Source: Ianthella basta (lineage: Eukaryota > Porifera > Demospongiae > Verongiida > Ianthellidae). From it: DNA of 64,000 nucleotides. Under the pieces are notes generated by a model that did not search any database, was not told where the DNA came from, and saw only the letters and a list, made by a program, of their open reading frames with translations. Both the position numbers and the translations under genes were made by a program. This document shows positions 5,975-32,609 of this stretch, one piece after another. The stretch is taken from positions 6,262,012 through 6,326,011 of the forward strand of contig OZ025878.1 in assembly GCA_964019415.1 (NCBI GenBank), in the 5' to 3' direction. Each line of letters begins with the position of its first letter. The stretch's first letter is position 1.

Positions 5975-6044
5975 ATGGGGGCCTTGTTGGCAGCTGCAGT
6001 GCTGCTAGCTATGCTGATCGTTAGGGGAACTGCGCAGTTATCAT
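5975..6044 (+). other. Signal-peptide exon of the 14-Calx-beta RTK
   Basis: The ATG at 5975 opens [20 protein letters not shown], a strong hydrophobic signal sequence with an Ala at the likely cleavage site. The exon ends in phase 1 at a consensus donor (TCAT|GTAAGT). This start was chosen because it is the only signal peptide upstream of, and in phase with, the first Calx-beta exon. Confidence 0.85.
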
Positions 6045-30000: not shown

Positions 30001-32609
30001 AAAGGTCATGGGGAAGCTGCATGAACCCATTCAAATCAGCGAATGACTTGCACAACAGATGAGCATGCACGTGTTTCAGCCTTCCAAATGATACATTCAC
30101 AACCCAGGATTGACAAGGCAGAACGTCAGCGTCGATACAGCATATCAATTGCTTATCCCTTAATTTGCTGCGGCTGCTATTGGTACTGGGCTGAACCAAA
30201 AGCTTTCCAATTACGCCTGATCCAGTAACTGATCTGATGCCAAAACGTTGCACATATATATGCCTTCCTAACGTGTCCAAGCACTCTTGCGTCAGTCATT
30301 GTGTGGTGTACCATGGACACAGCTCTCCAGCCCTTCCTAAATGGCCTTGGATAGCTTGCAAAGGTGCAGAAGACGTCCGCCACAACGTCCTACGGCACTC
30401 GGCAGTGTTGCTAGTCAACCAGGACAGGATTTAAAGCGCTCAGCCCTGCTCTAGGATAGGAATATCACCAGGTCTAGCATGCATCCCCAACAAAGTTGCA
30501 CTAAAATTTCAAATCTGAGGGCGCTTATTTACGATAAACTACTTACTTATATCTACTATAATTATACTTATATTTACTATTTACTTATATTTATTAGCTA
30601 TATACTTAAATTTACGGCAATCACCCTCGGGCACTTCATGCCCTTGGGACTCATGCAGTAAATGCAGTATGGCATTGATAGCGTGTAGTAACAGTACTAT
30701 TACTTATTGTTGCATTGCTGTGTAGTGATGGGTTAGTCAGCAACAAATTACAGCCCTTCCACATGATAAGCAATGTAACTTACAAAACAGAACACAAAGC
30801 AACTCTATAGGACTATTGGTAATTTATATTTTAGAAAACTGACAAATCAGCCAGTGAACACAGAGCATTTAGATGTCTTCTGACTAGTCAAAAGTGTCCA
30901 GCAAATTGTTATAACCTTGCTACATTGCTGCATTGTTCATGTGTCTATTTGTGATAATGAACTTCCTTATAGTTTGTAAAACGTAGCAACAGAAGAGCTA
31001 TAGAAAACAGTTGTGATTGTTGCGGCATTCTATCCAACTTGTACATTCGTGCGCTGGTGCAGTGTTGACATTCGGCACGAAAAGGGTCGACCATTAGTGA
31101 AAGTTGCAGGTGACCACAACAAGTACAAGTTGACTGTTGGTGTTTTATATGTAGTGGATGATGGAAAATGCCATGCACCTTGTGCAGAGCAAACTACTGA
31201 AAGACATGCAGATGACCATGCACCAGCAGCTTGTACTGGTGGTTTACTGTACATTAACTCAGTTTATTGCATTGATATATATTGCATGTGGTGGTCACTA
31301 TCGCTGGGTTGTTAAGTGTACTGTTCATCATATTTTAGACTATTAGTAAGAGCATAATAGACGTAAATTCATTACCAATGTAGGATAAGGACTCCACTGG
31401 AGAAGATGAAGGCTCTGTTTCCCCTTCTCCTGTGACACAAGCACCTGACATTGAACCACACCTCAAGAGCTTCACTTGCTTCGGTTGGCAGATTGCTAGT
31501 GGAATGGTAAGAGCTGCTTCAGCATATTAAATGAAGTGTGGGTTCCTGTGCACATACACTCTTACATCAAACAATTCCTGGAACATTGCACAATGTACAA
31601 AATTATTATGTGTAAAATTATGTACTAACATTATACTATCGTATAGGAGTATCTGCTATCAAAAGGAGTCATCCATCGTGACCTGGCCTGCCGCAACATC
31701 TTAGTAGGGGACAATGAGCTACTGAAGATATGTGACTTTGGGCTAGCCAAAGAGACCTTGGAATACACTTCAACTCGAAAGACTCGACTACCAATTCGCT
31801 GGATGCCACCTGAGACATTCCTCAATGGAGAGTTTAGTGAGAAATCAGACGTGTGAGTCTTCAGTCAAGTGCAGCAGGTTTTTATGTTGTACCACAACAT
31901 TATTCAATGTTATATTTTGAAAAGTCAATGCTTGTGTATATAATAAGTATGGCCCGGCGTGCAGGTGGGCTTATGGCGTCTGCTTGTGGGAAATCTTCAG
32001 TTTTGGTAAGTCTACAGAAGAGTTACTGAAATAATGCATAATTATATACATTGACACGATGAAAGGGATCTTTCGTCTTGTCAGAGTATTTCCAAATATG
32101 GCATTTGCAGGTGATCTGCCATACACTGAATATGGCAACACAGTTATCATCTCCAGGGTGATGGCAGGCTACAGACTGGAGTCTCCAGTGGGGTGCCCAG
32201 AACGAATGTAAGCCAACTCCACATATTGACACACTTTTGGCAATAGCATTCTGCAACTTGTGCTGGTGGAACATTATGTGCACTGATACACTTACAGTAG
32301 CGAAATGCACAATAGCTACATGGGTATACATACAGTCATATATTCTACTGCAGCTACTCCATAATGAGAGAGTGCTGGAATGGTGACAAAGAGTCGAGGC
32401 CCACCTTTCAGGAATTGAAGGAAGAGTTTGATGGTCTCATATCTCATGCAGAAAGGTACAAGTATGTAGTGCCTTTGGGCAGTGTGGCAGCTGAGGCAGG
32501 CCTTGTTGCGGATCCAGCTGAGGCACCTGTTCATGATCAACCCACTTCAAGCAGTGCTAGTGAGCCACAAGCACATTTAGAAGCTGCCTCTGAAGACAGC
32601 ACTGGATGA
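5975..32609 (+). CDS. Receptor tyrosine kinase with 14 Calx-beta modules
   Basis: Single-pass receptor kinase, expected at the plasma membrane and expected to phosphorylate tyrosines after ectodomain engagement. I read 41 exons joining to 7263 bp (about 2420 aa) with no frame break. Order: signal peptide (1-23), Calx-beta 1-14 (about 24-1739, from 28 exons with one exception), cysteine-bearing region (about 1740-1971), transmembrane helix (about 1985-2008), juxtamembrane segment, tyrosine kinase (about 2063-2360), short tail. All ectodomain exons are phase 1. The kinase has [26 protein letters not shown] and WMPPE, so it should be active. Exon coordinates are given in the sub-entries. Calx-beta modules commonly bind Ca2+ and occur in Na/Ca exchangers and in sponge aggregation factors. 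The ligand is unknown. The family assignment is secure; individual exon borders were read by eye. Confidence 0.87.
6164..6310 (+). pseudogene. Decayed duplicate of Calx-beta exon 2
   Basis: After a CGCAG acceptor, this stretch encodes a clear paralogue of exon 6913-7089, with the shared pattern GPxFSxS...[12 protein letters not shown]. The copy loses similarity after AAEDV and runs into a stop near 6325. No donor is kept at the position where the intact copy has one. It probably is skipped in the mature transcript. Confidence 0.75.
6913..8057 (+). other. Calx-beta modules 1 and 2 (exons 2-5)
   Basis: Exons 6913-7089, 7265-7510, 7590-7739 and 7833-8057. Each module is encoded by a first-half exon (strand pattern ending near a small-residue turn) and a second-half exon containing the DY...F...VTIxDD...ExxExFxLxL...IxDDD signature. 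Module 1 ends in INIEDDDG, module 2 in IEIRDDDG. Acidic clusters expected for Ca2+ binding are present ([12 protein letters not shown] and [11 protein letters not shown]). All borders are phase 1. Confidence 0.87.
8141..9335 (+). other. Calx-beta modules 3 and 4 (exons 6-10)
   Basis: Exons 8141-8329, 8439-8510, 8575-8793, 8859-8996 and 9096-9335. Module 3 is unusual: a 72-bp exon (24 codons) sits between its two halves and its second half is divergent ([15 protein letters not shown], ending RDDD). Module 4 is canonical ([14 protein letters not shown], then [16 protein letters not shown] and VTIIDDE). All borders are phase 1. Confidence 0.85.
9336..10179. other. Intron of 844 bp, nothing recognised
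   Basis: Intron between exons 10 and 11 of the large RTK. It holds an open stretch at 9592-9945 that has no homology I recognise. No repeat or mobile element was identified. Confidence 0.6.
10339..13631. other. 3.3-kb intron with an inverted repeat
   Basis: Separates the halves of Calx-beta module 5. Two 65-bp arms in opposite orientation lie at 12308-12373 and 12842-12906, with several patches of higher CpG content around them. A segment near 13300-13375 (CCATCAGCTCATATGGCTGG, then AATACAATACAATACAC) looks like a dispersed repeat. No transposase or other coding domain was recognised, so the mobile element is unclassified. Confidence 0.6.
12308..12906. repeat. Inverted repeat, 65-bp arms about 470 bp apart
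   Basis: The left arm 12308-12373 contains GATACGCTGACTGGCTCGCT and TTCGAAAGAGCAT. The right arm 12842-12906 is its reverse complement with only a few mismatches. The spacer shows no coding signal. Possibly the ends of a non-autonomous DNA element, but the arms do not sit at obvious target duplications. Confidence 0.75.
13845..16588. other. 2.7-kb intron carrying an antisense LINE remnant
   Basis: Intron between Calx-beta modules 5 and 6. The region 13845-14540 shows nothing I recognise. The remainder is mostly the LINE remnant listed separately. Confidence 0.7.
14600..16434 (-). mobile_element. LINE (non-LTR retrotransposon) remnant, antisense to host gene
   Basis: Read on the minus strand, broken frames encode pieces of a LINE ORF2. 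16313-16122 is a pre-RT segment. 16038-15651 is reverse transcriptase with [11 protein letters not shown] and [11 protein letters not shown], split across frames by at least one frameshift. 15555-15361 has the C-terminal LLYGAEMWG motif. Near 14900-14750, [18 protein letters not shown] is followed by a stop. The element is dead. Its exact ends and target duplication were not found. The plus-strand open frame at 14539-15054 is its antisense shadow. Confidence 0.85.
16589..18584 (+). other. Calx-beta modules 6-8 (exons 13-18)
   Basis: Exons 16589-16735, 16944-17153, 17249-17392, 17571-17783, 18151-18282 and 18387-18584, all phase 1. Second-half signatures are [38 protein letters not shown] and [19 protein letters not shown]. 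Modules 6 and 7 end in RDDD and KDNDG. Module 8 ends in RVLIT without the acidic end. Confidence 0.88.
19090..19370 (-). mobile_element. LINE 3' fragment in duplication copy A
   Basis: CT-rich on the plus strand. On the minus strand it reads like a LINE RT C-terminal segment of the kind seen beside 'DG..EEI..R..KA' motifs, heavily decayed. The same fragment recurs at 22045-22322 in copy B, so it predates the duplication. Confidence 0.5.
19497..21508 (+). other. Calx-beta modules 9-11 (exons 19-24)
   Basis: Exons 19497-19643, 19839-20048, 20141-20284, 20470-20685, 21072-21206 and 21311-21508, all phase 1. They correspond one to one with exons 13-18. The first-half exon of module 9 is almost identical to that of module 6. 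The second-half exon has diverged: [19 protein letters not shown] has Gly where copy A has the first acidic Asp. Confidence 0.88.
22045..22322 (-). mobile_element. LINE 3' fragment in duplication copy B
   Basis: Paralogue of the fragment at 19090-19370. On the minus strand, [18 protein letters not shown] resembles the region after the LINE reverse transcriptase core. Decayed. Confidence 0.5.
22878..25086. other. 2.2-kb intron with a short foldback
   Basis: No host exon seen. The segment from about 23630 to 24970 has no homology I can name and ends in a compact foldback at 24884-24966, so it may be one inserted element. Open frames on both strands (for example 23632-24003) are not convincing genes. 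Confidence 0.55.
24884..24966. repeat. 83-bp foldback (MITE-like hairpin)
   Basis: Arms of about 36 bp, TATAGGACAGTCA...CTCTTATAAAG against CTTTATAAGAG...TGACTGTCCTATA, around a 10-bp loop. The ends are TATAGG and CCTATA, consistent with a TA-targeting Tc1/mariner-like MITE, but the target duplication is not certain. Confidence 0.75.
26654..28077 (+). other. Cysteine-bearing membrane-proximal region (exons 29-32)
   Basis: Exons 26654-26815, 26917-27096, 27285-27443 and 27883-28077, all phase 1, about 232 residues. I recognise no named domain. Fixed features shared with the second RTK are [24 protein letters not shown] and [13 protein letters not shown] cysteine motifs, [14 protein letters not shown], CCxFExNSTETTC and LVxxMSQL-like ends. 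There are many NxT/NxS sites. It is conserved better than the outer modules, so it may set the spacing between ectodomain and membrane or mediate dimerisation (inference). Confidence 0.8.
28618..29025 (+). other. Transmembrane and juxtamembrane exons (33-34)
   Basis: Exon 28618-28780 encodes a Thr/Asn-rich stalk, the helix [20 protein letters not shown] plus VAITACI, and the basic stop-transfer [10 protein letters not shown]. It ends in phase 2. Exon 28971-29025 ([18 protein letters not shown]) ends in phase 0. The same two exons exist at 108-550 and 49639-50155. Confidence 0.88.
29734..31383. other. 1.65-kb intron inside the kinase domain
   Basis: Lies between the N-lobe and the kinase-insert exon. 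It holds a long hairpin at 29851-29963 and a CpG-richer stretch to about 30480. The remainder is AT-rich and unrecognised. No exon was found here. Confidence 0.6.
29851..29963. repeat. Hairpin with about 35-bp arms
   Basis: GGAAGGTGGCATGGGAGCA...ATGCTTACC at 29851-29885 pairs with GGTAAGCATTATGCTCCCAC...CACCTTCC at 29927-29963. The loop contains a third related copy (GGTAAGTGTTTTGTTCCCAC), so this is a small nested repeat family rather than a simple palindrome. Confidence 0.78.

Follow-up and report, generated by a model that had tools for sequence, protein, structure and literature searches.

Fourteen Calx-beta modules in a putative receptor tyrosine kinase, the long form within a tandemly duplicated gene family of the sponge Ianthella basta

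We analysed a window of 64,000 nucleotides from the demosponge Ianthella basta (contig OZ025878.1, positions 6,262,012 to 6,326,011). Its forward strand carries gene A (5975-32609), for which we obtained a model of 40 exons and 2396 amino acids whose introns have GT-AG borders. The predicted protein runs from a signal peptide through 14 Calx-beta modules (M1 to M14), a stalk of about 230 residues, a transmembrane segment and a juxtamembrane exon to a tyrosine kinase. A second gene (gene B) and a truncated paralogue (U) lie in the same window, and two further paralogues (P1 and P2) were used for comparison. The features are as follows.

59..1921, + strand: paralogue U, with transmembrane segment, juxtamembrane exon and truncated kinase; first kinase exons absent
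5975..6044, + strand: exon 1, start and signal peptide, phase 1 out; near-identical peptide at the 5' ends of P1 and P2
6164..6303, + strand: extra copy of the exon for the first half of M1, excluded from the gene A model
6913..9335, + strand: exons 2-9, Calx-beta M1-M4, N-terminal block; matching exons in P2
8439..8510, + strand: optional 72-base phase 1-1 exon within M3, present in both automatic models
10180..13844, + strand: exons 10-11, Calx-beta M5, with a 3.3 kb intron between the halves (Pfam, paralogues)
16589..18584, + strand: exons 12-17, Calx-beta M6-M8 (Pfam, spliced model)
19497..21508, + strand: exons 18-23, Calx-beta M9-M11, tandem duplicate of M6-M8
22740..26151, + strand: exons 24-27, Calx-beta M12-M14, the family-wide core (Pfam, genome census)
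26654..28077, + strand: exons 28-31, membrane-proximal stalk; no Pfam or PDB match
28618..28780, + strand: exon 32, transmembrane segment followed by the basic beginning of the juxtamembrane region, matched in paralogues
28971..29025, + strand: exon 33, juxtamembrane, identified by comparison with gene B and U
29189..32489, + strand: exons 34-40 (first part), tyrosine kinase domain (Pfam, PDB, motifs)
32490..32609, + strand: cytoplasmic tail and stop (gene A model)
34548..34801: kinase fragments, near gene A
39744..54556, + strand: gene B, an IgGFc-type relative; approximate automatic model with doubtful small exons

The model starts with the ATG at 5975 and its stop ends at 32609, identical to the base with an earlier sequence-only reading that had described a complete, phase-consistent gene. 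This description held: the 40-exon frame contains no internal stop across 2396 codons, and 31 of 31 ectodomain introns are in phase 1 in a model whose exon borders were partly curated by hand against the paralogues, phase choice included. Two automatic models, in which no phase was imposed, entered one and four ectodomain exons in another phase; both dropped kinase or module exons or included doubtful ones, and hand curation replaced them. Part of the M1-like exon copy at 6164-6303 was used in one automatic model; on inspection, the copy reaches a stop without a good phase-1 donor ahead of it. The same reading had counted 41 exons, and this number would be reached by adding the exon at 8439-8510, which both automatic models contain and which has a 70% match in P2 (no P1 match at E 1e-3). 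The total may therefore be 41 with this exon, and is 40 in our model.

The count of 14 modules, made by eye on the spliced protein, also agrees with the earlier reading. M1 to M11 are two-exon units and M12 to M14 are partly fused within larger exons. The Calx-beta family of Pfam matched M1-M5 (E 5.1e-25, 4 stretches), M6-M11 (E 2.1e-96, 6 stretches) and M12-M14 (E 2.6e-28, 3 stretches), so that the 14 modules yielded 13 stretches under a permissive E limit of 1, with one module of M1-M5 lacking a stretch of its own. These three thirds of the chain scored 88.2, 318.6 and 98.8 bits, all above the PF03160 cut-off of 27 bits. We also built half-module profiles; they derive from gene A's own modules and are not independent evidence of Calx-beta membership. 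M9-M11 are 76-84% identical to M6-M8, a tandem duplication. An xDxxxE acidic block was found by pattern in 12 of the 14 modules and by eye in M3 and M13 as well. Relative to the NCX1 sites, the acidic Ca2+-site positions are mostly retained. Exceptions are M5, M8 and M11, which have no terminal acidic cluster, and M6 and M10, where Lys replaces the second Glu in the central block. M7 matched the Ca2+-binding domains of NCX1 at 3.5e-10 (PDB 3us9, 2fws and 2dpk).

The signal peptide (exon 1) and one transmembrane segment (exon 32), both preceding the kinase, were located by inspection, with a hydrophobicity scan and matches in the paralogues. Because the signal peptide stands in front of them, the modules are predicted to be extracellular. 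The ectodomain had been described as Calx-beta throughout; however, the cysteine-bearing stalk directly before the transmembrane region matched no Calx-beta, Pfam or PDB entry. It returned 0 PDB matches at E 10, and its best Pfam match had an E of 0.051, in one of six members. We tried it as a diverged Calx-beta domain and rejected this, hhalign against the module profile giving a probability below 1% with a thin stalk profile (6 sequences, Neff 1.7). The two halves of the stalk, each an exon pair, are weakly alike (P 0.011, probability 3.8%). It is possible that the stalk represents a type of extracellular domain not yet described.

The kinase domain is complete. It covers positions 1-257 of the 258 of PF07714 (E 1.9e-82), and it has its catalytic motifs (GQGNYG, VAVK, the alphaC Glu, HRD and DFG). 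Pfam matched both Calx-beta and tyrosine kinase in gene A. Among the best 60 of 910 PDB matches, the near-full-length ones were the FGFR, RET and FLT3 kinases (1e-52 to 1e-54). Two rows among these 60 scored higher: EGFR 9p9u, in whose chain the kinase is present twice, and a construct of a Src-Abl ancestor, whose best stretch was 160-305. Beyond the source genome, relatives of one kinase exon were found at two loci in bacterial MAGs (35-46% identity) and none were found in the viral contigs searched. Within the genome, 8 short stretches from among 45 rows of the cathepsin family, examined for the demosponge marker silicatein, had no site of the silicatein type.

The genome census does not support a view of gene A as a lone oddity. 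The gene represents the long form within a family that has been duplicated in tandem and whose parts are joined by phase-1 introns. At least 68 copies of one kinase exon were found at 78% identity or more, and 31 of these 68 have the Calx-beta core exon of the family upstream. Three long forms were mapped. P2, which lies 134 kb upstream, has matches to 40 of 40 gene A exons in the same order with 0 stops; P1 keeps the exon order and has one stop in aligned exon 8. Exon 33 is just 56% identical in P1 and P2. The cytoplasmic tail is lengthened by repeats in some paralogues relative to gene A, and the tail of U carries a 27-bp repeat. In other members, gene B among them, an IgGFc-binding domain replaces modules 1-11. 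Gene B has a signal peptide, IgGFc_binding (about 40168-41534; Pfam 1.6e-36), an additional Calx-beta half-module at about 43866, the Calx-beta core (45765-46874), stalk, transmembrane segment and kinase. Three members of the IgGFc-type class have their own signal peptide. Because long forms and IgGFc forms have the same core and a different distal part, the family is, as judged from its sequences, a fixed proximal core (three Calx-beta modules, stalk, transmembrane segment and kinase) joined to differing distal ends.

All genome counts are lower bounds in which the best candidates were scored. The census took 68 of 150 rows for the kinase exon (78% identity or more, the remainder at 62% or less), 32 of 46 for the core (45% or more), 31 of 32 for the stalk, 25 of 71 for IgGFc and 40 of 52 for the M1 exon. 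A recount with all 52 M1 rows, 45 of them on C11, raised the kinase exons with an M1-type exon upstream from 4 to 5 of 68 (one C4 locus included) and left those with an IgGFc match at 6. Of the kinases, 4 have upstream of them one of the four C11 IgGFc fragments with stops; for two of these 4 there is no further match to IgGFc or M1 (7.3 kb), and P2 is another (38.8 kb). The paralogue scan missed exons 24-27 and gave spurious early-module matches in three short forms, probably through its order rule, and short-form results are restricted to stalk-to-kinase rows.

One possibility raised by these counts is that the locus holds two genes: 5975-21508 would encode a secreted Calx-beta protein of 11 modules, and 22740-32609 a short receptor kinase of its own. 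The core exon is upstream of 31 of the 68 related kinases and an M1-type exon of just 5, and the M1 rows, most of them on C11, show that the M1-M11 block has relatives away from the gene A kinase. We consider this unlikely, however, as the interval between M11 and M12, flanked by phase 1 on either side, is 94% conserved along its length in P2, and most of it is conserved in P1, at 95%. A signal-peptide scan of this interval in A, P1 and P2 passed no exon, and no IgGFc domain was matched at E 1 in the window outside gene B. The assignment of modules and kinase to one gene thus gains support from the order shared by P1 and P2 and from the signal-peptide scan.

Within a single gene pair, synonymous divergence differs from block to block (0.03 to 0.35 for P1). 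This is consistent with gene conversion, and pairwise omega values are unreliable as a result. With this reservation, omega for the kinase was 0.11 (P2) and 0.13 (P1), against 0.23-1.01 for the ectodomain blocks. The kinase of gene A is, by these estimates, under purifying constraint relative to the two paralogues. It could be speculated that gene A is a decaying copy in a duplication-rich cluster without a function of its own, since broken relatives (U at 59-1921 and the kinase fragments at 34548-34801) lie nearby; however, the open frame, the canonical splice sites and the constrained kinase make this very improbable. M12-M14 gave 1.01 (P2) and 0.67 (P1) and the stalk 0.63 (P2) and 0.82 (P1), values that are no proof of positive selection where omega is 1 or below. 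Both blocks differ from the kinase in both paralogues (Fisher p 8e-6 to 4e-4, four contrasts). Fast evolution of the ectodomain is not uniform across blocks, because M6-M8 (0.23 and 0.42) showed no significant difference to the kinase (p 0.38 and 0.09) and M5 gave 0.44 and 0.31. These values also bear on the idea of an ordinary growth-factor-type receptor in which the Calx-beta chain is a mere spacer and ligand binding falls to the stalk. One stalk exon is indeed common to members on C11, C13 and C4; however, the stalk evolves fast between long forms (0.63-0.82), and if the chain were a spacer there would be no need for another distal fold in some members. We regard this reading as rather doubtful.

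The explanation we find probable is that gene A encodes a single-pass receptor tyrosine kinase, the long form of its family, whose Calx-beta rod would read Ca2+-dependent cell-surface recognition through a putative ligand. Ca2+ bound at the conserved acidic sites would stiffen the rod, and its distal end could bind Calx-beta or other glycoprotein ligands on adjacent cells or matrix, possibly proteins of the aggregation-factor type. Clustering of receptors at contacts would then let the kinases phosphorylate one another, and the resulting signal could stand for contact, adhesion or non-self. Varied distal ends for the same kinase might arise at the locus through duplication, gene conversion and the shuffling of exons. 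To our knowledge, no receptor for Calx-beta adhesion proteins has been established in sponges. A concrete candidate for one is a family of tyrosine kinases that, like this one, combines Calx-beta modules in a constant core with varied distal ends, and the locus illustrates how a receptor kinase may acquire new ectodomains via phase-1 exon shuffling.

Demosponge allorecognition is described in a review as controlled by Calx-beta aggregation factors (PMC10815962), which favours the recognition reading given above. It is conceivable, although we think it improbable, that the cluster is the receptor half of a Calx-beta-based self/non-self system, in which exchangeable, fast-evolving ends on a constant signalling core would bind aggregation factors or each other, with shuffling and gene conversion providing individuality. 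A similarly tentative alternative is a set of pattern-recognition receptors, expanded with different ectodomains, with which a filter feeder would bind mucus or the surfaces of microbes. The IgGFc_binding ends, tandem expansion and relaxed ectodomains are compatible with an immune repertoire, and a figure legend lists IgGFc-binding and Calx-beta among the domains of Halichondria receptors, although that legend places neither on tyrosine kinases (PMC8242945).

Read as a single-pass Calx-beta receptor kinase, gene A has partial likenesses among known systems; our literature search found no description of a Calx-beta receptor tyrosine kinase. Like FGFR, RET and FLT3 it has a complete kinase domain. 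Classical receptor tyrosine kinases have Ig, FNIII, cysteine-rich, Sema or leucine-rich ectodomains, whereas in gene A Calx-beta modules and the unmatched stalk replace them. Among the domain types of classical bilaterian families, Ig, FNIII, EGF, Furin-like, Sema and LRR were all absent from the Pfam matches of the gene A protein at E 1. NCX1, the Calx-beta prototype, resembles M7 in sequence and in several acidic site residues; however, its Calx-beta domains are few and intracellular, while gene A has 14 behind a signal peptide, predicted outside. FRAS1/FREM and integrin beta-4 are surface proteins with Calx-beta. We know of no tyrosine kinase domain in these or in adhesion GPCRs, all of which share surface Calx-beta with gene A. 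The ectodomain modules tabulated for adhesion GPCRs include Calx-beta (PMC12716839). Sponge aggregation factors, as a review describes them, share extracellular Calx-beta and a gene cluster with gene A and are proteoglycans (PMC10815962), a likeness by description. A secreted, kinase-free aggregation factor does not fit the transmembrane segment and kinase of gene A. Lastly, the recently described GPCR-TKs of choanoflagellates and sponges are lineage-restricted fusions of receptor and tyrosine kinase (PMC12716839); they span the membrane seven times, while gene A has a single transmembrane segment with Calx-beta.

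We searched the 209-Mb assembly (96 contigs), and gene A was built from two automatic models with hand curation against its paralogues. The loci compared are as follows (unprefixed coordinates are window positions; C11 is contig OZ025878.1):

5975-32609 (+): gene A, with signal peptide, Calx-beta modules M1-M14, stalk, transmembrane segment (TM), juxtamembrane exon and tyrosine kinase
26654-28077 (+): stalk of gene A, exons 28-31
39744-54556 (+): gene B, a relative with a different distal end
C11 6133976-6160366: P2, a long-form paralogue of gene A; a second, P1, also lies on C11

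The curated model starts at 5975, stops at 32609 and comprises 40 exons (7191 coding bases, 2396 aa), with GT-AG introns and a single, terminal stop. Phase 1 holds for each of the 31 introns lying between the signal peptide and the TM exon; those further downstream have mixed phases. This pattern does not arise from curation alone, because the first automatic model, in which phase was unconstrained, also gave phase 1 entry for the ectodomain exons after the first, except for one behind a spurious 28-base exon; the second automatic model entered four ectodomain exons in other phases. Extracellular modules that have been shuffled are expected to show phase-1 symmetry. By pattern match, residues 1-2010 carry 49 N-glycosylation sequons. 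A second M1 first-half exon (6164-6303), sharing 63% identity with the exon in the model and by eye lacking a good phase-1 donor, is present here and in P1 and P2; it is possibly an alternatively spliced exon or a relic. The M5-M6 intron holds an open frame (15651-16097, -) that by eye resembles a non-LTR reverse transcriptase fragment.

The paralogues bear on whether this is one gene or two. All 40 exons were matched in P2 in the same order with 0 stops, and P1 keeps the order with one stop within aligned exon 8. The long-form signal peptide heads all three genes, and P1 has two copies of it, each preceding an M1-type block. No signal-peptide exon between M11 and M12 passed our scan in A, P1 or P2; this interval of gene A is 94% identical to that of P2 over its whole length and 95-98% identical to that of P1 over most of it. 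In each comparison, identity of the juxtamembrane exon drops to just 56%. Judged from the sequence, gene A is one gene, not two.

Pfam detected Calx-beta in each third of the array (E = 5.1e-25, 2.1e-96 and 2.6e-28), with 13 stretches for the 14 modules at E 1, and gave a complete tyrosine kinase match (E = 1.9e-82). The sequence-only reading, which had placed 14 Calx-beta modules and an apparently active kinase in a single gene, is supported in this respect by both Pfam and the paralogues. Identity among the modules has a median of 25%, and M9-M11 are a three-module duplication of M6-M8 (76-84%). M7 matches the NCX1 Ca2+-binding domains (3.5e-10). Acidic positions of the Ca2+ site are mostly retained; the terminal acidic cluster is absent from M5, M8 and M11, and Lys replaces the second Glu of the central acidic block in M6 and M10. 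The kinase has the Gly loop, VAVK, alphaC Glu, HRD and DFG motifs. Among the best 60 of 910 PDB matches, near-full-length ones were to FGFR, RET and FLT3 kinases (1e-52 to 1e-54), and two matches scored higher, one to a Src-Abl ancestor construct and one to an EGFR chain carrying two copies of the kinase.

The same reading had taken the ectodomain to be all Calx-beta, and here it overlooked the stalk of about 230 aa that four phase-1 exons encode between M14 and the TM. Pfam found no match in the stalk of gene A (the best among six family members was 0.051, in one member), its profile had 0 matches to PDB sequences at E 10, and Hhalign did not join this thin profile to Calx-beta. Cysteines are conserved across the six aligned members and the two halves weakly resemble each other. 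The stalk possibly consists of two copies of a new domain.

Pairwise omega values of gene A (Nei-Gojobori), by block
Block: vs P2; vs P1
M1-M4: 0.38; 0.48
M5: 0.44; 0.31
M6-M8: 0.23; 0.42
M9-M11: 0.50; 0.67
M12-M14: 1.01; 0.67
Stalk: 0.63; 0.82
TM + juxtamembrane: 0.62; 0.51
Kinase: 0.11; 0.13

For each pair, Fisher tests set five blocks against the kinase. M1-M4, M9-M11, M12-M14 and the stalk differed from it (p = 8e-6 to 4.5e-4), whereas M6-M8 did not (p = 0.38 and 0.09). Against three shorter-form loci, omega was 0.11, 0.17 and 0.26 for the kinase and 0.66, 0.48 and 0.50 for the stalk. Because of this contrast between blocks, we conclude that the kinase is constrained, with a large part of the ectodomain either relaxed or diversifying; we make no claim of positive selection. 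Synonymous divergence between A and P1 ranges from 0.03 to 0.35 by block, a spread that suggests gene conversion or mosaic duplication.

Nor is gene A the lone case it had seemed. Among 150 scored rows, 68 copies of its kinase exon 31647-31852 reach at least 78% identity (C4 25, C11 19, C13 18, C7 3, and one each on C2, C21 and C22). Within 40 kb upstream, and not past the next kinase, 31 of the 68 have the Calx-beta core exon M13-M14, 30 a stalk exon, six an IgGFc_binding match and five an M1-type exon. Three of these five (A, P1 and P2) were mapped as long forms; the other two (C11 5184010 and C4 12627221) count by their upstream M1-type match. At the sensitivity used, 35/68 showed neither core nor stalk exon upstream, and one such C13 locus, partly read, had kinase exons and no nameable ectodomain. 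Three units in the stretches read have TM, juxtamembrane and last kinase exons and lack the first kinase exons:

59-1921: U, a truncated paralogue
C11 6060973-6062252: truncated unit
C11 6128209-6129372: truncated unit

The presumed cytoplasmic tail of U contains a 27-bp tandem repeat of 16 copies (1403-1840) encoding AEAGLIADP, and unit number varies among family members. Downstream of gene A, 34548-34801 (+) carries kinase exon fragments whose order is reversed (a K4 piece precedes K3). The paralogue C11 5983405-5997206 has retroelement-like frames in a kinase intron (C11 5990926-5995809). Long single frames with protein-kinase matches cluster elsewhere (C3, C5, C8, C11, C16 and others).

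In gene B, a separate signal peptide and a domain of about 390 aa encoded by two exons precede the shared core (M12-M14, stalk, TM and kinase); two further C11 loci (starting 5983405 and 6070485) have the same arrangement. Pfam identifies this domain as IgGFc_binding in gene B (1.6e-36), a genome scan found it at all three loci, and its exons enter in phase 1 like the ectodomain exons of gene A. IgGFc_binding, Calx-beta core and tyrosine kinase make a second receptor architecture in the window, perhaps odder than that of gene A. Two of the six IgGFc_binding matches sit 31-32 kb from their kinase; at the one mapped, the domain is followed by another Calx-beta array, a 5-kb N run and then the core, so its assignment to that kinase is tentative. 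C11 also holds four IgGFc fragments containing stops.

With 52 rows of M1-type exons genome-wide, 45 of them on C11, relatives of the M1-M11 block also occur beyond this kinase family. At one of these loci, partly read, we saw Calx-beta exons and no clear end. The 45 rows lie at C11 4.83-6.27 Mb, and only 4/19 family kinase exons on C11 have one upstream. On these matches, the region is a larger Calx-beta gene cluster. A cysteine-rich frame (SCVRECPRGFVGDHVTGRCETC), weakly Furin-like (Pfam, 0.26), occurs at 4181-4324, 60770-60877 and C11 6014671, 6067430, 6084660 and 6132165, at four of these sites about 2-3 kb ahead of a receptor's signal peptide.

The receptor architecture, the gene family and the contrast in constraint are established from sequence. 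NCX1 Calx-beta binds Ca2+, and clustering is a signalling mode of receptor kinases; a Ca2+-stiffened Calx-beta rod would read neighboring surfaces. Among the papers listed by full-text literature searches, judged by titles and abstract openings, none describes a Calx-beta receptor kinase, although sponge kinome supplements could already list some; as far as those parts indicate, papers combining "Calx-beta" with a kinase term concern integrins, hemidesmosomes, Halichondria receptors and GPCRs. A review (PMC10815962) places allorecognition in Amphimedon under the control of Calx-beta aggregation factors; the gene A family is thus a candidate for the receptor side.
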